Shown: positions 24,191-33,560 of the stretch, piece after piece
How positions within the stretch are numbered: position 1 is the stretch's first letter
Layout of the letters: every line of letters begins with the position of its first letter
NCBI RefSeq assembly: GCF_000346505.1
Contig: NZ_ANOH01000141.1
Coordinates: 1-64,000, forward strand
Origin: Aporhodopirellula sallentina SM41
GTDB lineage: Bacteria > Planctomycetota > Planctomycetia > Pirellulales > Pirellulaceae
Length of the DNA stretch: 64,000 nt
Direction: 5' to 3'
Notes under the pieces: generated by a model
Database searches by the model: none
What the model saw: only the letters and a program-made list of their open reading frames with translations
Told to the model about the DNA's origin: nothing
Position numbers and translations under genes: made by a program

Positions 24191-26557
24191 TTATTGGTTC
24201 TTCATGTGTTCTTCGAGCATCCTTAATGCTGTCCGGAACAATTCCACGTCGGGCTCTAATTCCACTGCACGTTGTAATTGCTTTCGCGCCGCAGGCAAAT
24301 CACCGGACAAATATAAAGCTAGCCCATACCGATATTGCAGGTCGGCAATTTCAGGGGCGAGTTTCGCGTCACGATCGAGCAGCGGCAGTTCCTCGCGTCG
24401 GAGCTGGGTGACCTTCTTCTCAACGCCCGCGATCCCGTCCTCTCCGCCGACCGCGTTTAAGACCTCTTGCACCGACGGATCTTTGCGTGACATCGGAATA
24501 AGACGATCGAGCAACGCCGCGAGGTTCGTTCGCGGTCCGGTGGTCCCCGGTTCGACCCGCATCGCATTGCTATAAGAACGAATCGCCTCCGCCCACTGGC
24601 CACGCTGTTCGCTCAGCATCGCCCAACCCATGTGCGCACCAGCCCGATCGGACGCGTACATGAATTCATCTTTGACGTCGCTGAGCACCTGATCAAGCTC
24701 TCTCCGCTTGGTCCCCGACAATCGCTGATACGCGTTCCCGTTAACGATCCCCCGAGCCGCTTCGCTGCGGACCAACCGCGACGAATGTGACAGCAACGGG
24801 TAGAGCTTCTTCTGCACCTGCCCCGGATCCATCGCACCACCGCCTCCGAGCATGCCGATCGCGCGAGCCGCCGACGCGAGCAGGATCGGATGCAACGCTT
24901 CCGGATCCCTTTCGTTCTCATCGATCAATTGCTCCGCCGCATCAACCGCTTCGACGTGCCCCTGCATCACCAACTCGTCGAGCGCCGTCGCCCGAGCAAT
25001 CACTGGCGTTAAGGCCTGTTTCGGATCGGTATTCGATCCGGCAATCAACTTCAACGTCTTGCGAACACCCGACCGATCACCGCGTCGCAGTGCGGCGATG
25101 GCCTCGGCATAGTGCGGTGGCTTGAGTCGCTGCTCGCCATACCATTTGTCGCACGCCTCATCGCACCACTGGTCGGTTTTCTCAATGACTTCACTGACCT
25201 TTTCATTGCCCTGCGAAGCGGCAAGCAGCCAGTCTTGATACAGTTTCAAATCGTCCGAGACTTCCGCCGGCAACGTGTCACGCAGGTCTTCAACGTGGCA
25301 TCCGCTGCATGCGTTAGGCGTCTTCAACTCCACCGACAAATCGGGCCGTGGAATGCGGAAGCTATGGTCGCGCCGTGGATCGACCGCCATGTAGGTCGTG
25401 TGAGGCATGTGGCAATTGACGCACATCGCCCCTTCACTACCAACGGGATGATGATGGTGTGACGGCACATCGTATTTACCGGCGGCGTGTTGATGGCAAG
25501 AGGTACACGTTTCGTTGCCGGGGTGTTTGAGCTCGAGCGAGTGAGGGTCGTGGCAATCGGTGCAACGAATACCCTGATGATACATCTTGCTTTGTAGAAA
25601 CGATCCGTAAACATAGACTTCGTCTTTGATCTGTCCGTCATCGTGATAGGTGTCGCCGCGCAGCAACTCCAGGTTGTAGTGGTCGCAGTACGCCGCGCCG
25701 GGACTCATCTTTCCATCAAGAACACCGCGTCGGCTGTGGCATGGTGCACACGTTTCAATCTGGGGCGTGGTGTCTTCCGTCTTCAGATTCACGAGCGCAT
25801 AACCGCGATGCCGGTCCCAAAACAACGAACTCCGGTTGGCCAACTCAACGTGCAAACTCGCCGGACCGTGACAGGCCTCGCAACTGACGTCTATCTCTGA
25901 AAACGTTGTGTGGTATCTCTGAGTCGCGACGTCATAATTGCGTTTTAGATCGGTGCTGTGACACTCGGCACACATCGTTTGCCAACGCTGTGCGATCCCG
26001 GTCCAGTGCAGCGGATCATCCGGTTCCAACTTTTCGCTAACATCCGGTGGTCGTAGATAAAACCATTCCTTGCGGTTGGTGTCCCAACTGATTCGCAGGA
26101 CTTGAACCCGTCCGACTTCATCCTCGGCCGCGTCTTCGGGCCGCTCAAACTCGACCATGTATTGCTGCAACGGGTCGACGCCAAAAACGTACTTGACCTC
26201 GAAGTGCTCCATCTCGCCGGTCGGTCCTTCGGTATAAACCATGAACTTCTTGCCGTCGCGATACAAACGACTTTCGATACCGTCGTTCACAAACGTGACG
26301 TCATTGAAATCGCCCAGCACGGTTTCGTCCGTCGCTAGGTCCATCGCCATGTCATGATGCGAACCGGTGAACGCCTGCGTTTCGGTTTCGTGACACTCAA
26401 CGCAGGCATCACGGCCCACGAAGGAGGCGACGGCATCTTCCGGAAGGGCACGAAGATAGTCGGCCATCACGCCGCCTGCGACGAGAACGCCTACTGCGAC
26501 GACGGCGATCAACCACGGATGGCGGGCGACAAAAGATCGATTGGTTGGGTGGGACAT
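24191..26557 (-). CDS. Octahaem c-type cytochrome with helical-repeat C-terminus
   Basis: A 788-residue exported protein with an N-terminal membrane anchor (WLIAVVAVGVLVAGGVMADYL). Eight CxxCH haem sites are visible: CVECH, CAECH, CEACH, CAPCH, CTDCH, CTSCH, CVNCH and CSGCH. The order resembles the cytochrome c554/doubled-CxxCH group found in planctomycetes. The second half has no haem and is built of alpha-helical repeats, HEAT-like at about 550-640 and TPR-like at the end (YRYGLALYLSGDLPAARKQLQRAVELEPD). A periplasmic electron-transfer or redox-scaffold role is likely; no substrate can be named. It follows the GTPase/TolQ operon with an 11-base gap. Confidence 0.9.
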   Translation of the reverse strand: MSHPTNRSFVARHPWLIAVVAVGVLVAGGVMADYLRALPEDAVASFVGRDACVECHETETQAFTGSHHDMAMDLATDETVLGDFNDVTFVNDGIESRLYRDGKKFMVYTEGPTGEMEHFEVKYVFGVDPLQQYMVEFERPEDAAEDEVGRVQVLRISWDTNRKEWFYLRPPDVSEKLEPDDPLHWTGIAQRWQTMCAECHSTDLKRNYDVATQRYHTTFSEIDVSCEACHGPASLHVELANRSSLFWDRHRGYALVNLKTEDTTPQIETCAPCHSRRGVLDGKMSPGAAYCDHYNLELLRGDTYHDDGQIKDEVYVYGSFLQSKMYHQGIRCTDCHDPHSLELKHPGNETCTSCHQHAAGKYDVPSHHHHPVGSEGAMCVNCHMPHTTYMAVDPRRDHSFRIPRPDLSVELKTPNACSGCHVEDLRDTLPAEVSDDLKLYQDWLLAASQGNEKVSEVIEKTDQWCDEACDKWYGEQRLKPPHYAEAIAALRRGDRSGVRKTLKLIAGSNTDPKQALTPVIARATALDELVMQGHVEAVDAAEQLIDENERDPEALHPILLASAARAIGMLGGGGAMDPGQVQKKLYPLLSHSSRLVRSEAARGIVNGNAYQRLSGTKRRELDQVLSDVKDEFMYASDRAGAHMGWAMLSEQRGQWAEAIRSYSNAMRVEPGTTGPRTNLAALLDRLIPMSRKDPSVQEVLNAVGGEDGIAGVEKKVTQLRREELPLLDRDAKLAPEIADLQYRYGLALYLSGDLPAARKQLQRAVELEPDVELFRTALRMLEEHMKNQ

Positions 26558-26568
26558 GAAGTATGGGG

Positions 26569-27264
26569 TTAGCGTTTGGTCGCTTCGGGATACTGCTGCA
26601 GCAACAAACGGGTGGCTTGGAGCCTCATGCGGTAGATCAGTTCACTGACCGCCTGAGATTGTTCAGAGGAATTCAGCGACGAATCGGTTGCTTGCGTGTG
26701 TTTCGTTTCGTTGTCAGACGCCTGCACTAGAGGAACGAGTTTCTCTAGCATTCTCGACGTCTTCAATAATGATTCGGCCGTCTGTACGAAAGCCGAGCGT
26801 GTTTGGGTTGACCGAATCGCGTTCGCCTGATGGCCGCGTCCGTTTGCGGGTTTCGCGGCATTTTCGATCCCGAGCGGATCACCCGAATCGGGGTCGAGGC
26901 TGGATCCGTCAAGCACGCTGCCTTGGCTGCGAATGACGTCGAGCACGTCGCCGAGCACTCCCGGAGGAGCGTTCGGGGCTTCGCCCTGCAACGCCTCGAA
27001 AATTTTCTGCTCCGCCTCCGGATCCGGCATCGGCGCGATCGGATCGGGAATCGGTGTTATCGGATTGGGAGACTCTTGGCCCTGCGTCCCAGGAGACTCC
27101 GATTGCGTCGGTACCGGCACAGTGTCGGTTGGCGGTTTAGCCTGACCGTTTGCGACCATCGTCAACAACATGACCGTCATCAATGCCAGCCGGCAACAAC
27201 GCCTTCGCGACCGAGTGGATGCTCGCTCGACGAAGAGCGATCGAGAACACAGAGATTCGCTCAT
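26569..27264 (-). CDS. Secreted or membrane-anchored hypothetical protein of the GTPase/TolQ operon
   Basis: A 231-residue protein with an N-terminal hydrophobic segment (LALMTVMLLTMVANGQA) that could be a signal peptide or a single membrane anchor. A Pro-rich stretch follows (PITPIPDPIAPMPDPEAEQK), then a mostly helical C-terminal region (TAESLLKTSRMLEKLVPLV ... SELIYRMRLQATRLLLQQY). No known family was recognised. Its start overlaps the end of the TolQ-like gene by four bases. Because no ExbD/TolR gene is present, this protein occupies the position where such a partner would be expected, but it does not look like ExbD. Confidence 0.8.
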   Translation of the reverse strand: MSESLCSRSLFVERASTRSRRRCCRLALMTVMLLTMVANGQAKPPTDTVPVPTQSESPGTQGQESPNPITPIPDPIAPMPDPEAEQKIFEALQGEAPNAPPGVLGDVLDVIRSQGSVLDGSSLDPDSGDPLGIENAAKPANGRGHQANAIRSTQTRSAFVQTAESLLKTSRMLEKLVPLVQASDNETKHTQATDSSLNSSEQSQAVSELIYRMRLQATRLLLQQYPEATKR

Positions 27265-28151
27265 GAGGGTTTTCGTGTGCGTGTGCGAGGCTGGGGACGA
27301 GACTGCGGGAGAGGTTGATTGGCCGCGCGTGGGTCCGTCGGCACGGCGGGCGGCGGCGTTCCGGTCGATTCCGGCGTAGCGACCTTGGTTCCCTTGAGCT
27401 GCGCGGGAGCGACCGGCATGATTCGTCCGGACGGGTTGCCGGCAACGTTTCCCTGTCCCGCACGACGTCGCAGCGGCGAAAGAGCTCGCTCGGTTTGACG
27501 CGTCACCTCCGACAATAGTTCATCGACGCGGGCACGCAAAACGCCCGACGCGGCCAAAGCCGGGATGGCGACAATAAGACCGCCTACTGTCGTCACCAAC
27601 GCTTGATAGATCCCTTCGGCGAGATCGCCCGCACCGGCCGAACCCTGCGTCGCGGCAACCTGGCGAAACGCGAAAATCATGCCTGTCACCGTGCCGAGCA
27701 AACCCACCATCGGCGACAAATTCGCGATCATCGATAGATAGTCAATCCGTCGGTGCATTTGGGCCGACCGGTCGATCAACGCGTCTTCCACGGTTTTCTC
27801 CATTTCCGACCAACCGAATTCCCGATTTGCAAGTGCCAACGAGATTACCCCGGCCAACACACTCGGTCGATTACGAAGCGCATTCTCCGCCTCCGACCAA
27901 CGCGACTCACGCAGCGCCGCGGCGACTTCGCCGGACAAACCATCAGGAACGATGTCGGCTCGCCGCAACGAAATGAACTGGTCAATGACCAAGTACAATG
28001 CCGCGATGCTCAGCAACACGAGGATCAACAGAATTACGATCCCGGGCCAACCGCCACTGGTAACGATCTCCCAAAGCGAATCCGTTTCTCCGGGAGGCAC
28101 GGTGGTTTGAGCCAACCCAGTCAATAAACAATCCGTCGCAGCCCACGTCAT
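27261..28151 (-). CDS. MotA/TolQ/ExbB proton-channel family protein
   Basis: A 296-residue inner-membrane protein. ATG 28151 overlaps the upstream GTPase stop (ATGA) and is preferred over the longer open frame. A first membrane helix (WPGIVILLILVLLSIAALYLVI) is followed by a cytoplasmic loop and the conserved channel helices IANLSPMVGLLGTVTGMIFAF and ALVTTVGGLIVAIPALAAS. Relatives assemble with ExbD, TolR or MotB to turn proton or sodium flow into mechanical work. The C-terminal 70 residues are Pro/Arg-rich and cytoplasmic. No ExbD/TolR-type gene is adjacent. Confidence 0.92.
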   Translation of the reverse strand: MTWAATDCLLTGLAQTTVPPGETDSLWEIVTSGGWPGIVILLILVLLSIAALYLVIDQFISLRRADIVPDGLSGEVAAALRESRWSEAENALRNRPSVLAGVISLALANREFGWSEMEKTVEDALIDRSAQMHRRIDYLSMIANLSPMVGLLGTVTGMIFAFRQVAATQGSAGAGDLAEGIYQALVTTVGGLIVAIPALAASGVLRARVDELLSEVTRQTERALSPLRRRAGQGNVAGNPSGRIMPVAPAQLKGTKVATPESTGTPPPAVPTDPRAANQPLPQSRPQPRTRTRKPS

Positions 28152-30121
28152 TTCGCATCCTCCGAAACCACCGGCGTGTCCCTCGCCTCGTTTGTTTTCG
28201 CCATGCGTCCGATCGACAGGAGAAACTCCGCATCGGCCAAGATCGGATCGCTCCATCGCAACCTCAACACACCGTCACGCTGCAGCGTTTCGATCATTGC
28301 ATCATGCTGCGTCCGCAACGATCGGGCGATCCTTTCAATCCGCCGGCGTCCCTGACACACTGACAAAACGATCATTGCAAAAATCGCCATCGGCAACAAA
28401 GACAACAAGACGCTCGTGAACAGCATCCCGGCACTCGGATGCGGAAACCGCTGCAACCAATCATTCGCGTGCTCAGCCGAGACAGCGACTTCGACCGCTT
28501 CGGTCGTCGCGGGTTCGCTGCCGCCGGCCAGGTTGCCGATCGCGACATAGCTCGCATCGAGATAGTTGTGGTACAACGCGACGAGCGGCCCGGCCATCAA
28601 CGCCCAAAAGATAATGGTGCCAATCAACCCGGCTAAGAACGCGAACGTTCCCGAAACACCTTCGCGGGCGATCGTTTCTTCAAACGCCGCTTGTGAACCT
28701 TCCTGCAACGCGTCGACTCCGGCGAGCGTCGCCACGGGCGAATCATCGTCAACAACTTCGCCCAGCGTTGTCCCCGAACGATGCAACCCGTTCAACTCGC
28801 GACGAAAACGCGACGCCATCGGCCCGAGTCGTTCGGTGACAGCAGTCGAGGCCCGTTGCCGCAAACCGTTTCGCAGGTCCAACGCGGATTCATGGCCGCC
28901 GCGGATATTTTGCACGCTCGTGTAGACCGCACCGACGAGCGAAGGGATCGATCCGGAAAACGACAGCAGCACGCGATCCCACGCCCCATGCGTTAGGTTC
29001 AACACCGACAAAACGGTGCGATAAGGGAACCAAATCGCGGCTGTTTCGGACAACAACGACAACCGCAACCGACTGCGAATCGCTGCCTTAAGCGGTATCT
29101 CACCGCCGAGCAGTGTGCTCGCGATTTGAGTCGGCAGGCGACGGGCCTCGGCGTCGAGTCGGTCCACCGCTGCGGTTAACTCAGGCAGTTGGCTCGTTAA
29201 AACCGACCCGACCGCTGCGGTGAATCTCGCGTCCAAAGCCGACAACCGAGTCGAGCGTCGGTGATCCCCGCCGCCCGATTCAGCCAACGCTTCGGAAATC
29301 GCACCGGCAATTTCCTCAGCGGCCTGCTTTCCGATTTCCTCTTCGCCTCGAGGATCGATTTCGAAATCACGAATCATTACCGCCGAAGCGATGCTGCTCT
29401 GCGGTGCCACCGATCGCAAGCGAGAGACCAACGTCTCGATGTCCGCTGTCAAATCATTATCGACATCCGCCCGCTGCGCGGTGCCCGATGCCGGCGTGAA
29501 TTCATCAACGCCGACCATGTTTACGACCGGTATCACGATCGTTCCTTCGGACGCCGAAGCGAGCCCAGTGACACGTTGGCTGCGGAGCTGATCGCGGCGA
29601 ACCACCAGTACCAAAACCGATGCGAGCGAAAGTGCGCGTTCGGCCACTCCAGCGATCGCACGACGGTCGTCGGTCGATCCAGGAGCGTCGACGATCAAAT
29701 ACGGGCCACCAATCGACTGCATCTTGGACGCGTCGCAGACGAGATATCGTTCGTGCCGGGTATCGAGATCCGATGGCGGTTTGGGGCCGACCCAGGTGAG
29801 TTTCTCGGTCGCTTCATCAAGGTTATTGCCGCTGCGGATCGCCGCCGCGATCGCGGGGTCACCCACCAATTGTCGGGCGAGCCATGATTTGCCTTGACCG
29901 GTCGTTCCCACGATAGCCACGACCGTCGCGTTGTCGGCGCGATCGGCAATCACCATCGAGCGAGCCTCATGATGGTGCCGACAAAGCTCAACAATCTCGA
30001 TCCCCGCGTCACTGTCGCCGAGCACCCGAGTCGCCGCCCGTTGCACACGCTGGGTGAACTGTTCTCCGGCATCGCTCACGCTGACTTCCATCCCACGCGG
30101 CAGAGCATCGCTTACGCTCAT
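28148..30121 (-). CDS. Dynamin-like P-loop GTPase with membrane segments (GTPase 1)
   Basis: A 657-residue protein. The G1/P-loop is GTTGQGKS at 72-79, G3 is DAPGS at 145-149, and a G4-like NMVGVD lies at 201-206. A long helical middle domain follows. Two hydrophobic segments, about 492-516 (FAFLAGLIGTIIFWALMAG) and 566-588 (LFTSVLLSLLPMAIFAMIVL), flank a short extracytoplasmic loop. This arrangement resembles bacterial dynamin-like and YjdA/LeoA-type GTPases, though the family is not certain. It overlaps both neighbouring genes by four bases, pairing it with GTPase 2 upstream and the TolQ-like channel downstream. Confidence 0.8.
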   Translation of the reverse strand: MSVSDALPRGMEVSVSDAGEQFTQRVQRAATRVLGDSDAGIEIVELCRHHHEARSMVIADRADNATVVAIVGTTGQGKSWLARQLVGDPAIAAAIRSGNNLDEATEKLTWVGPKPPSDLDTRHERYLVCDASKMQSIGGPYLIVDAPGSTDDRRAIAGVAERALSLASVLVLVVRRDQLRSQRVTGLASASEGTIVIPVVNMVGVDEFTPASGTAQRADVDNDLTADIETLVSRLRSVAPQSSIASAVMIRDFEIDPRGEEEIGKQAAEEIAGAISEALAESGGGDHRRSTRLSALDARFTAAVGSVLTSQLPELTAAVDRLDAEARRLPTQIASTLLGGEIPLKAAIRSRLRLSLLSETAAIWFPYRTVLSVLNLTHGAWDRVLLSFSGSIPSLVGAVYTSVQNIRGGHESALDLRNGLRQRASTAVTERLGPMASRFRRELNGLHRSGTTLGEVVDDDSPVATLAGVDALQEGSQAAFEETIAREGVSGTFAFLAGLIGTIIFWALMAGPLVALYHNYLDASYVAIGNLAGGSEPATTEAVEVAVSAEHANDWLQRFPHPSAGMLFTSVLLSLLPMAIFAMIVLSVCQGRRRIERIARSLRTQHDAMIETLQRDGVLRLRWSDPILADAEFLLSIGRMAKTNEARDTPVVSEDAK

Positions 30122-32376
30122 TTCTTGATCCCCGAGGAACGCGGCAAGAGTTTGTTCAGTTCGCTAACGAATTCATCACGAACACGATACACCGGCATCG
30201 TCGGGCCGCTCGTTTCGCTGCGCGCGATTCGCGAGGCGGGTAAGGTGACTTGATGGTTGGCGACCCGCACCTTCATCGGTGGATCCGGGCGTGCCACACC
30301 AAGTTCGTCACAGAGGACCGCGAGGAAATCCGCGAGCTGCTGCCGCGCCGCCTGCTGACCGACTTCACGTGCACCTTGATTTCCCGCCCACATCGCCGCG
30401 AGTGCTCCGAGCCCCGCCGCGGCGAGCAATTCCGGGATCGACGCAGCGAGAATGAAGCTATGCCCAAAGTCGACAGGGATCATCAACGCCGCACCAAACG
30501 CGGCAAAGATCGTCGCCAAAGGAGTCAGCCCGTGAGCCAACTTCTTATGCATCGGAATCTCCGACCACATCATCCGAATTGCCTCGTCGAGTCGTCTCGG
30601 ATCGAGCGTCGTAAAATCGTCCTGTTCGAAACGTGTCACCGCTCGCTGAATGGGCGGCAACAACAACTCCGCATCGTTCACAAAACCACGTTGGTTCGAA
30701 ATCGTGACCGTGCCCTCTTCATTGGGCTCTTCCAACGACAAACCCGAATCGTCAATTGAATGTTTGCCCGGTGACGCTTCGGTTTGGTGATCCCGGTAGT
30801 GAGACAACACGACCGTTCCACCGTGTCGTTCGATTTCGGCGAGCAAACCTTCCGGTGCGATCAAGCCACCATACTCGCCGCTGCGGAAACGACCTTTAAT
30901 GTCGTCGGCCGCCTTCTGCGAAAGAGCCGACGGGGTGAGCGAACGCATGAAGTCGCCGGCGCCACCGACGAACCGACGGATCGTGGAATTCAACCGCACA
31001 CCCCAACGCGCATACCAAGGCGCGGTCGCGGCAAACGATTCCGATAATTGACGCAAGATCCGTTCGCTCTGATGCAGCCGCAGCTCCATGACTTCGCCAC
31101 CGATCTTGCGATGCGCGAAGAACTCCAACGACGCGTCCAACAGCACCTCGTGACACTCGCGGGTTTTCGCAAACGAAGCGTCCGCGTTTCTACGAATCGC
31201 ATCGAGGCCGCGATCCCAAATCACCTTCTCCAAGTTAATCCGCAACGCGCGATGGAGCTGTGAAAACAGCACGCCACGATCGAGCTTCAACGGCAACGAT
31301 TCAAGGAAACGCCCTTCATCGATGGAGGCCGGCGGGTTTTCATCCGGGTTCGGCGAAACCTCAAAGAACACAGGCAACGGCTCAGACTCCTGCGCCGTTT
31401 CGCTCGATTCCACTTTTCCGGTCGACGAATCCATCGGATTAGCTAACCGACGATCACTCGCCTCGTCTTCTCTGTGCGGGATAAACGGGCGGCTCGCCGG
31501 CACGTCGTAATCGTACGCAGCGTAAATCGACGCCACGCCGTGTTTCTGGCTCAACGGCGAAAATGTCTCGTGGACTTGATCCGGTGTTTGCCGCGGCCGG
31601 ACTTTGTTTACCGCCAACATCCGCGGAACCCCGGGCATCAAATCCGACGCGATCCGCATCAGATCAGCCAACGTGGTATCACGCGACGAAGCCGCATCGG
31701 TCACGATCAGAAACGCCGAACACAACGTGGCCGCGCGTCCGAGCAATTCCTTGCGTTCTTTGGGTGACCCTAATCCGAGTTCTTCATCAGAAACGATATC
31801 CGGACAATCCAACAAACCGACACCGAGTTCGTCCAACGCCGGATCGGTCGCGAGCAAAGCCACGGAGAGTTGCGAGTGATCGCCGCTACGATTGTTGTAC
31901 TGAGAGGCAGCCTGGTCTGGATTTTCCGAAAGGTCTTCGGGCGGGTGTCCGAGCGAATCGCCGATGCGAGAAACCAGAAGGCTCCATAACTCAACGTCGT
32001 CCCGCCACGACTGCGGCAACCATAAAACAAAACGGTGAGTTCCCTCGCGGTTGCTCGTTCCCCGCAGCGTCCTCGCCTGACCAGCCGGACTCAGAAACGA
32101 ACTCACCAAACTCGTCTTGCCACTATTGAGCATTCCCGCGACAGCGATCGTTGGCCGATCGACCAAACGCCCGGCGGTATCGAGTCGACGCCCCGCGGTC
32201 AGTGTTTCGGCAACAACCGAAGACTGCATCCGCCGCAACGCCGTCAGATAACTCTCGCGGCCCGGCGTGGGTGCCAACCGGGCAATGGTTGCGCGACGAT
32301 CGTCATCCTCGAGAAGAGCCAGCAGCGCCGGCCAATCGATCTCCGGTTCTTTCGTTGAGCGTCGAAGCGGGAACAT
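30118..32376 (-). CDS. Dynamin-like P-loop GTPase with membrane hairpin (GTPase 2)
   Basis: A 752-residue protein from ATG 32376; a TTG 33 bases upstream would add 11 residues. P-loop GMLNSGKT is at 81-88, G3 DCPD at 190-193 and G4 VNKV near 256-259. A helical stalk-like region (residues about 370-600) leads to a hydrophobic double segment at about 617-665 (LATIFAAFGAALMIP, then LLAAAGLGALAAMWAG), which suggests a membrane-inserted paddle or hairpin. It is distantly similar in layout to GTPase 1, and the two are translationally coupled. Paired dynamin-like proteins in other bacteria often work as heteromers. It is the first gene of the leftward operon. Confidence 0.8.
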   Translation of the reverse strand: MFPLRRSTKEPEIDWPALLALLEDDDRRATIARLAPTPGRESYLTALRRMQSSVVAETLTAGRRLDTAGRLVDRPTIAVAGMLNSGKTSLVSSFLSPAGQARTLRGTSNREGTHRFVLWLPQSWRDDVELWSLLVSRIGDSLGHPPEDLSENPDQAASQYNNRSGDHSQLSVALLATDPALDELGVGLLDCPDIVSDEELGLGSPKERKELLGRAATLCSAFLIVTDAASSRDTTLADLMRIASDLMPGVPRMLAVNKVRPRQTPDQVHETFSPLSQKHGVASIYAAYDYDVPASRPFIPHREDEASDRRLANPMDSSTGKVESSETAQESEPLPVFFEVSPNPDENPPASIDEGRFLESLPLKLDRGVLFSQLHRALRINLEKVIWDRGLDAIRRNADASFAKTRECHEVLLDASLEFFAHRKIGGEVMELRLHQSERILRQLSESFAATAPWYARWGVRLNSTIRRFVGGAGDFMRSLTPSALSQKAADDIKGRFRSGEYGGLIAPEGLLAEIERHGGTVVLSHYRDHQTEASPGKHSIDDSGLSLEEPNEEGTVTISNQRGFVNDAELLLPPIQRAVTRFEQDDFTTLDPRRLDEAIRMMWSEIPMHKKLAHGLTPLATIFAAFGAALMIPVDFGHSFILAASIPELLAAAGLGALAAMWAGNQGAREVGQQAARQQLADFLAVLCDELGVARPDPPMKVRVANHQVTLPASRIARSETSGPTMPVYRVRDEFVSELNKLLPRSSGIKK

Positions 32377-32644
32377 CAATGGGCGATAACTCCAGGCGGC
32401 ACGCGTCAATCACGTGCGACGCCTGTTTCAAATAAATAGGAACGCTGGCGTTGAAGAACGAAACGTTTCTATCATCCCGATTCTTGCGACCGAGCACAAC
32501 CAGACACGCTCATTACAAATTCCGACACCCGCGAGAACGCCTGGGTGAGGATATGCGGTTCGTTTCGAAGGCCTACTGCTCGCAGGCCTCCAACCATCCG
32601 CCCAAACGAGTCATCGGACGAATTTCTCGTCCCGCAAATACGGC

Positions 32645-33301
32645 TCAGTTTAAAACCGCACCTGGTGGCAACGGATCGGCACTGATGATGCGATCGCCCT
32701 GTGCGTCGTATTGTCCTGGATCCAAACGATTGGATTGGTAGGTACGTGGTTGCCATCCGCCGTCTGGTACAACGCCACCGGAATAGCCACCGTCGTACGT
32801 GCCGCCACCGAGATAGGGATCCACGACCGTACCGTCGTATTGCACACCGCCATAAGACGACACACCACAATCACCACCGCACGAGGTTCCGCATCCGCAG
32901 TCGGCAGGCATGCCCACCGAGTATCCGCCATCGACATAACCGCCGTTAGCGTAACCACTGCCGACGCAGCCACCTTGGCATGGTGCCTGGTATGGTGCCG
33001 GAGCGTAGGCCGTTGGGCATTGAGGCGCAGGCGCCCGAGCGACAGGAGGTGCGTAGGTCGGCGCCGGGTTGCGATTGAACAAACCACAACGTGGCGTTCC
33101 ACATCCCGGTGCGGCGGGTGCGCCCGGTGCCGCGTTCGGAGGAGGAGCGAGCGGGTTGATCGCGGTTCCTACCGCTCCGATGCGGCTGCAGAGGCCACAG
33201 CGTGCGCCACGGCCAAAGAAAAAGTTTCGCATTCCACCGCACCCGGTTGCACTGCCCATGACCATCACGAGCGTTACAAGTGTGAAAGATCGGATAGTCA
33301 T
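32645..33301 (-). CDS. Cys/Gly/Tyr-rich lipoprotein, hypothetical
   Basis: ATG 33301 is preceded by AAGGAAAC at proper spacing and starts a lipoprotein signal (MTIRSFTLVTLVMVMGSATGC, lipid Cys at 21). The 218-residue protein then has Cys-rich and Pro/Ala-rich stretches (CGLCSRIGAVG, PAPTYAPPVARAPAPQ) and a Gly/Tyr-rich tail with repeats of GGY and CGCG. No enzyme domain is recognised. The composition is that of a cross-linked surface or cell-wall protein, in keeping with the Cys-rich walls described for Pirellula-type planctomycetes; that is inference. A 343-bp gap with no gene separates it from the GTPase operon. Confidence 0.75.
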   Translation of the reverse strand: MTIRSFTLVTLVMVMGSATGCGGMRNFFFGRGARCGLCSRIGAVGTAINPLAPPPNAAPGAPAAPGCGTPRCGLFNRNPAPTYAPPVARAPAPQCPTAYAPAPYQAPCQGGCVGSGYANGGYVDGGYSVGMPADCGCGTSCGGDCGVSSYGGVQYDGTVVDPYLGGGTYDGGYSGGVVPDGGWQPRTYQSNRLDPGQYDAQGDRIISADPLPPGAVLN

Positions 33302-33560
33302 CAAAGTTTCCTTCAAAAGCAAAGCAAGCGTAAACGTTGGCCTCCGACGGGTGACCACTGAAAAGTAGTGCGCGTTTCGTGTTGTGCAAACGCAACATCG
33401 TTTTTTTTCAGCAACAATTGGTTGTCGCAGTGCAACACACACTCCCTCCGCTTGCGATGCGCCGATACAGAAGCTGGTGTGACAAATCGCTGCACCGGAT
33501 TTAACCGTCGCAAACCCTTCATCTTCTTCATCCTTCCTTCATCAACGTCTGATCGTCGCC

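Follow-up and report, generated by a model that had tools for sequence, protein, structure and literature searches.

Most bacterial dynamin-like proteins (DLPs) are paired, and each of the two Campylobacter proteins shows negligible GTP hydrolysis when alone, according to the available excerpts of one report (PMC6104087). Here we describe a window of 64,000 nucleotides (the whole stretch analysed, positions 1 to 64,000 of contig NZ_ANOH01000141.1 of Aporhodopirellula sallentina SM41), in which two genes, here called G1 and G2, encode large putative GTPases and are followed by a gene for an ExbB/TolQ-family channel subunit. On our best reading, G1 and G2 are a family, new by sequence, of the known kind of paired bacterial dynamin-like proteins, marked by atypical motifs and by an unusual neighbouring gene. 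The best explanation overall, which we hold to be probable, is a heterotypic dynamin-like membrane-remodelling pair to which ExbB has become attached in one clade. The evidence comprises fold matches to dynamins, strict co-inheritance of G1 and G2 in the genomes examined, an adjacency to ExbB that is confined to a clade and retained there, and a separate ExbD pair. In the literature searched, no paper came up that links dynamin-like proteins to ExbB or ExbD, and none that describes a dynamin system of Planctomycetes. The three genes are located as follows:

30118..32376, minus strand: G1, dynamin-like GTPase 1, 752 amino acids (P-loop, hydropathy, fold)
28148..30121, minus strand: G2, dynamin-like GTPase 2, 657 amino acids (P-loop, hydropathy, fold)
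27261..28151, minus strand: ExbB/TolQ-family channel subunit, 296 amino acids (Pfam; ExbB orthologues elsewhere adjoin two ExbD genes)

A preliminary description of this stretch had reported four minus-strand genes overlapping by four bases at each junction (30118-30121, 28148-28151 and 27261-27264), the fourth being that of a short secreted-like protein, and this arrangement is seen in the map of open reading frames (ORFs). The same description took the first two products for large P-loop GTPases with C-terminal membrane segments, and indeed the P-loops are present and the segments are predicted by a hydropathy scan; the third product is, as stated there, a channel of the MotA/TolQ/ExbB type (Pfam PF01618, E 4e-25, 88.4 bits against a cut-off of 22.9). 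The G1 ORF is extendable to a TTG at 32409, and the ATG at 32376 is the start in the nearest relatives; the channel ORF is extendable to 28256, the start at 28151 being backed by close relatives such as loci L059 and L060. The window G1 is 89% identical to the G1 of L059, a record titled Rhodopirellula rubra.

The strongest result concerns inheritance: the genes for G1 and G2 are often separate, yet neither is retained alone in the genomes examined, and the two behave as obligate partners. When 84,980 species genomes were scanned, 103 relatives of G1 turned up; the top 80 were kept and, with the window, make up 81 loci. By record title these relatives are Pirellulaceae and other Planctomycetes, plus one record of Candidatus Thiobius zoothamnicola (L137). 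The loci were found through G1, and the occurrence of G2 without G1 could be addressed in two sets only, 196 genomes of the order and 392 genomes of the phylum. Among the 74 loci with room for a next gene, G2 stands directly behind G1 in 59, and where the genes are apart both are found in the same genome in 17/17 cases (15 loci plus genomes G125 and G164; these 17 are 19/19 handles minus one duplicate and G532, in which the genes are paired, with G125 and G591 being the same genomes as L-numbered loci). Among the order's 196 genomes, profiles at E ≤ 1e-10 place both G1 and G2 in an identical set of 18 (Fisher 8e-26; 5e-14 at genus level, with 10 of 102 genera; neither value is corrected for kinship), and in the phylum set the strong matches to both fall in the same three genomes. 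A tree built from 72 G2 proteins requires at least seven switches between paired and split genes. Since only those 18 genomes carry it, the pair is not a division protein common to the order. On whether all four genes are conserved together the answer is divided: G1 and G2 are so throughout; the TolQ-like gene joins them in one clade only, and the secreted-like protein accompanies them in no more than 6/81 loci.

Genome G144 has two copies each of G1 and G2; at L054 (5307-9154 and 12162-16009) a tandem duplication of 6,855 bases in that genome holds two G1-G2 pairs that look identical, together with flanking ORFs, and reflects either a recent duplication or an assembly artefact. At L066 (4154-5980), G2 is found in two ORFs parted by an in-frame stop, either a pseudogene or a sequencing error in this metagenome-assembled genome (MAG). 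The Candidatus Thiobius record is a gammaproteobacterial symbiont MAG whose G1-G2 pair (L137, 9800-13713) lies beside a gene that, by eye, is rpoD-like, and its neighbouring genes look proteobacterial, again by eye; among 147 genomes of that order only this one matches strongly and one other weakly, so the copy may be a horizontal transfer or a stray MAG contig.

The proposal that the two GTPases are dynamin-like was made in the preliminary description and is supported by comparison of folds. AlphaFold2 models calculated from family alignments (mean predicted local distance difference test, pLDDT, of 82 for both; predicted template-modelling score, pTM, of 0.76 for G1 and 0.66 for G2) contain a long helical region, hydrophobic C-terminal segments and closing helices, elements that are likewise present in BDLP and the mitofusins. 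Foldseek searches of the PDB with these models put dynamin-superfamily entries first in both cases. The best match of G1 is Drp1 (6e-6), followed by IniA, Fzo1, SynDLP and the Campylobacter DLP pair, and 13/13 PDB matches at E ≤ 0.001 belong to the dynamin superfamily, counting EHD4. The best match of G2 is BDLP (7e-9), followed by LeoA, Fzo1, the Campylobacter pair, Drp1 and IniA; the first 37 of the 50 matches listed all belong to the dynamin superfamily, broadly taken (BDLP, LeoA, Fzo1, mitofusin, Cj-DLP, Drp1, dynamin, IniA, SynDLP, Mx, Mgm1, EHD and GBP). Non-dynamin GTPases rank lower, these being EF-Tu, FtsY and small (Ras-type) GTPases for G1 and eIF5B for G2.

The motifs were compared in 40 representatives of G1 (39 of the 75 full-length sequences plus the window, the partial sequence from L133 being left out) and 33 of G2 (32 of 55 plus the window). 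The window G1 has a P-loop GMLNSGKT, a switch-I-like GTHRFV, DCPD at the G3 place and NKVR, which lacks the Asp, at the G4 place; the window G2 has a P-loop GTTGQGKS and DAPG at G3, and no NKxD at the G4 place. The P-loop is found in 40/40 G1 sequences, with an invariant Gly-Lys, and in 33/33 G2 sequences as GK[ST]. In G1, GTHRFV is nearly invariant and its switch-like Thr invariant, and the G3 place, where GTPases have DxxG, reads DCPD in 39/40 and ECPD in 1/40; nearly all G2 sequences have DxPG there, the Asp being invariant and the PG nearly so. By a simple hydropathy scan the window G1 has hydrophobic C-terminal segments at 617-635 and 641-659 (a predicted hairpin, 617-659) and the window G2 at 493-511 and 571-589, with a further stretch marked at 156-174, within the G domain of G2; at least one such C-terminal segment is predicted in 40/40 G1 sequences, and two in 33/33 G2 sequences. 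In the distant relatives L053, L054 and L055, G2 is without any GxxxxGK[ST], and the G1 of the same loci has a P-loop, which suggests that G1 is the partner with constant nucleotide binding and that G2 may be able to become a structural one.

Several observations weigh against an obligate dynamin-like pair linked to ExbB. NKxD at the G4 place was found in 0/40 G1 and 0/33 G2 sequences (G1 retains the Asn there, and one G2 has an N/TKxD-type string elsewhere within residues 150-330), and specificity for GTP, or for guanine, is therefore unproven. GBP and atlastin are likewise not known to carry the N/TKxD motif. The template-modelling (TM) scores normalized to the query are low, at most 0.26 for G1 and 0.32 for G2 among the matches listed, and the whole-dynamin alignments that appear in several Foldseek rows have a large root-mean-square deviation; the likeness is for this reason one of the G domain and the order of the elements, on which the dynamin-like fold expected at the outset mainly rests, the stalk superposing poorly and giving no rigid match in these alignments. 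Profile searches against dynamin-family models gave little: the window G1 reaches 13 bits for Pfam Dynamin_N against a cut-off of 27, the window G2 matches only MMR_HSR1, exactly at the cut-off, with no Dynamin_N match listed, and Dynamin_N is matched at E < 0.01 in only 1/40 G1 and 2/33 G2 sequences (counted by E value rather than by the bit cut-off). The profiles of G1 and G2 have no clear match to each other (hhalign probability 5.7, E 0.0067). Weak G1 matches occur outside the 18 genomes, by BLAST in G049 and G099 and by profile in seven genomes of the phylum set (E 6e-5 to 1e-3, short stretches), and weak G2 matches occur in G017 and G373; all of these weak matches cover short stretches, none is at or below 1e-10 and none is accompanied by the other partner. 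Finally, ExbB is found in 18/19 genomes of the same family that are without the pair, so its co-occurrence with the pair is uninformative on a functional link and only retained adjacency counts. Searching solved structures by sequence, from single proteins and from profiles alike, was uninformative; in the profile searches, chance-level helical matches ranked at the top for G1.

Some of these features would suit G1 and G2 being separate large membrane nucleoside triphosphatases (NTPases), for example of signalling or defence, that are dynamin-like in the G domain only: Pfam leaves the window G1 unassigned, its G3 (DCPD) and G4 are non-canonical, the TM-scores are low, and PADLOC gives weak matches to LeoA for G2 and to ZorA for the channel. 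We regard this as quite improbable, given that the best fold matches are to the dynamin superfamily, above EF-Tu, FtsY and the Ras-type GTPases, and that the models extend beyond the G domain into the long helical region, the C-terminal hydrophobic segments and the closing helices.

The channel belongs with its orthologues in a clade of their own (support 99/98), which includes those of pair-bearing genomes in which the channel gene lies away from G2 (L174, L181, L187 and L195). Counted at E ≤ 1e-50 over the 196 genomes of the order, where some matches near the threshold are possibly paralogues, ExbB is found in 96: 18/18 with the G1-G2 pair and 78/178 without it. Given its presence in so many pair-free genomes, it is not dedicated to the GTPases. 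The adjacency of ExbB to G2 requires two changes on the G2 tree, most simply through one gain and one loss; the tree left out L280 (at a contig end) and L289 (the same genome as L130 and G125), and L066 and short pieces were dropped by the length filter. The clade marked by the gain (support 100/98) has 34 members, of which 32 are linked, one is not scorable and one is without the link, and ExbB was, most simply, recruited beside G2 once, in the Rhodopirellula/Rubripirellula/Stieleria clade. Two other identities for the channel were considered and rejected: the TolQ of the Tol-Pal system, the channel scoring 71.6 bits against a TolQ equivalog cut-off of 221, and the ZorA of Zorya, which PADLOC matches only at E 0.0085, Zorya partner genes not having been searched for.

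With chances that we judge about even, the G1-G2 pair and ExbB are merely co-regulated neighbours, a housekeeping ExbB working in its own ExbBD complex beside an ordinary dynamin-like pair that serves membrane repair, fission or phage-stress tolerance. The strong ExbB matches in 78/178 pair-free genomes fit such an account, as does the position of ExbB away from G2 in pair-bearing relatives outside the clade. Speaking against it, the adjacency is retained in 32/33 scorable clade members, and in 5/6 of the clade members on the tree in which G1 has moved away; moreover, the nearest possible ExbB start lies -4 to +2 bases from the G2 stop in 16/28 loci scored, under a nearest-start rule that is biased to small gaps and that missed the true ExbB start of the window.

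The distribution of ExbD bears on the same question. The channel had been described as lacking an ExbD/TolR partner, which is true of the contig that carries the window and false genome-wide: the genome, a draft assembly of 491 contigs, has ten ExbD matches, all on other contigs, and among them is a tandem pair of matching kinship on contig C75, which has no ExbB match. In the ExbD tree the C75 pair joins the ExbD1 group (weakly, 81/57) and the ExbD2 group (99/99) that elsewhere adjoin this ExbB, and the tandem pairs of G113, G180, G184 and G576 likewise join those two groups. Two ExbD genes stand beside ExbB in 16/20 orthologue surroundings, namely 12/12 without the G1-G2 pair and 4/8 with it; the four without a neighbouring ExbD are L247 (cut by the contig end), L248, L249 and L250, in the last of which ExbB stands behind G2. 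At L234, genes for vWA and TPR proteins are also found around ExbB. The clade member L278, in which G1 is elsewhere, has the order G2-ExbB-ExbD-ExbD, supported by Pfam, and in the other clade members examined the ExbD genes are away from ExbB. An orphan channel without ExbD is rejected in view of the C75 pair, the order in L278 and the 16/20 ExbD-flanked orthologues; most simply, the ExbB gene would have parted from its ExbD genes and come to stand with the dynamin-like pair. The 12/12 pair-free genomes with flanking ExbD genes and the matching tandem pair elsewhere in the window's genome are also in keeping with mere co-regulation.

A machine energised by ion flow, in which ExbB-ExbD-ExbD acts on or through the dynamin-like pair, and ion flow and nucleotide hydrolysis together shape membranes across the envelope, would draw on the retained G2-ExbB adjacency, the gene order in L278 and the predicted membrane segments of G1, G2 and ExbB. 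We consider it unlikely: an ion coupling is suggested by gene context, from which the interaction is only inferred, the ExbD genes are elsewhere in the clade members examined except L278, and ExbB is widespread without the G1-G2 pair.

Under the preferred explanation, a heterotypic dynamin-like pair with clade-specific attachment of ExbB, G1 and G2 would be two obligate subunits of a bacterial dynamin-like complex, each anchored in the cytoplasmic membrane by a hydrophobic hairpin in its C-terminal part; the two G domains probably associate, and nucleotide hydrolysis would tether, fuse or pinch the membrane. G1 would retain its P-loop throughout, and G2 could lose it and persist in a structural role. 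Within the Rhodopirellula/Rubripirellula/Stieleria clade, the ExbB gene would have moved behind G2 and been kept there, with the ExbD partners mostly encoded elsewhere, and the remodelling pair and an ion-driven ExbBD motor would probably be co-produced and may work at one common site of the envelope. What we infer here comprises the formation of a heteromer, the remodelling of membranes, co-expression and physical contact with ExbB; that a G1-G2 heteromer acts on the cytoplasmic membrane is probable because of the fold kinship and the habits of bacterial dynamin pairs. Possible services of the pair are repair, vesicle release, invagination or budding, and ExbB may be only co-expressed with it, or may energise or position it.

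Beyond the channel gene, the block continues with two further genes:

26569..27264, minus strand: short secreted-like protein, 231 amino acids, of no known family (in 6/81 loci, with a cytochrome gene next each time)
24191..26557, minus strand: multihaem cytochrome c/TPR protein, 788 amino acids (ORF list, Pfam)

The second of these was overlooked in the preliminary description; it begins 11 bases after the secreted-like gene and probably shares a transcript with the four genes upstream. A signal peptide on the secreted-like protein is plausible by eye. Its gene was found by profile and BLAST in 6/81 loci (the window, L059, L061, L062, L068 and L095), the cytochrome gene stands next in 6/6 and is found in no other of the 81, and a six-member profile of the secreted-like protein retrieved no further copy from the 81 loci. 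The occurrence in 6/81 loci, with the cytochrome gene next in all six, rules the protein out as a conserved part of the GTPase system, and it more likely belongs with the cytochrome than with the GTPases.

Gene maps of the loci were drawn by a longest-ORF rule rather than by a gene finder, and ExbD neighbours were counted in six frames. On the other side of the block, a short envelope-like protein rich in glycine, proline and cysteine is encoded upstream of G1 in the window (32645-33442) and, among the 81 loci, is found elsewhere only in L059, L061 and L062. A Ser/Thr kinase gene lies directly upstream of G1 in 15/81 loci, of the Stieleria/Rubripirellula group (for example, L044 12061-14367 and L048 5713-7914); the kinase of L048, the only one checked for domains, has a weak Cache-domain match, below the cut-off. 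A DUF1571 gene lies directly before G1 in 5/81 loci, and the window has neither gene at this place; a sensor Ser/Thr kinase and DUF1571 as neighbours are hints of envelope signals. In several Pirellula-group genomes the gene adjoining G2 reads as MnmE (L052 5200-6474, L286 3-1241, L287 6514-7749 and L289 2880-4097), presumably an MnmE-like tRNA-modifying GTPase.

These results add a strictly co-inherited two-protein dynamin-like family to the Planctomycete phylum, whose members have unusual membranes and divide without FtsZ by an unknown route. The available part of one account describes the mechanism of FtsZ-independent budding as unknown (PMC4164004). A single envelope machine made up of the dynamin-like heteropair and an ion motor of ExbB-ExbD-ExbD is a doubtful prospect in these budding organisms; all the same, the clade-confined and retained link to ExbB is a concrete, testable hint that remodelling of the dynamin type can be joined to envelope motors driven by ions. 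The cultured genera Rhodopirellula, Rubripirellula and Stieleria offer a handle on the function of G1 and G2, and the G2 members without a P-loop raise a clean question of active versus inactive partners.

Among known systems, the Cj-DLP1/Cj-DLP2 pair of Campylobacter jejuni is alike in consisting of two unlike dynamin-like GTPases from neighbouring genes, and it is one of the leading fold matches of G1 as well as of G2. There is no clear kinship in sequence, the G1 profile matching 5owv_A at E 0.098 over the P-loop region. The Campylobacter pair is reported, in the excerpts available, as cytosolic with a lipid-binding tip, whereas G1 and G2 have predicted hydrophobic hairpins; its operon as shown there has no ExbB, and in the clade of the window ExbB stands behind G2 (PMC6104087).

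LeoA and LeoBC of enterotoxigenic Escherichia coli are also tandem dynamin-like proteins, and LeoA ranks third among the fold matches of G2. Unlike G1 and G2, LeoBC is divided over two genes and LeoA is reported to be periplasmic, as far as the accessible text of the source goes (PMC4159319); the PADLOC model of LeoA matches G2 only at E 0.0064. BDLP1 of Nostoc punctiforme, mitofusin/Fzo1 and IniA are alike in that their fold matches extend across the G domain and the helical region. In contrast to these, G1 and G2 are without an NKxD-type G4 and make up a two-gene system, and the window G1 falls below the Dynamin_N cut-off.

The ExbB-ExbD and TolQ-TolR motors, finally, are alike in the channel, which is of the ExbB family and in 16/20 relatives is adjoined by two ExbD genes; unlike in those motors, the ExbB gene of the clade is joined to a dynamin-like pair and, in the genomes examined except that of L278, parted from its probable ExbD genes.

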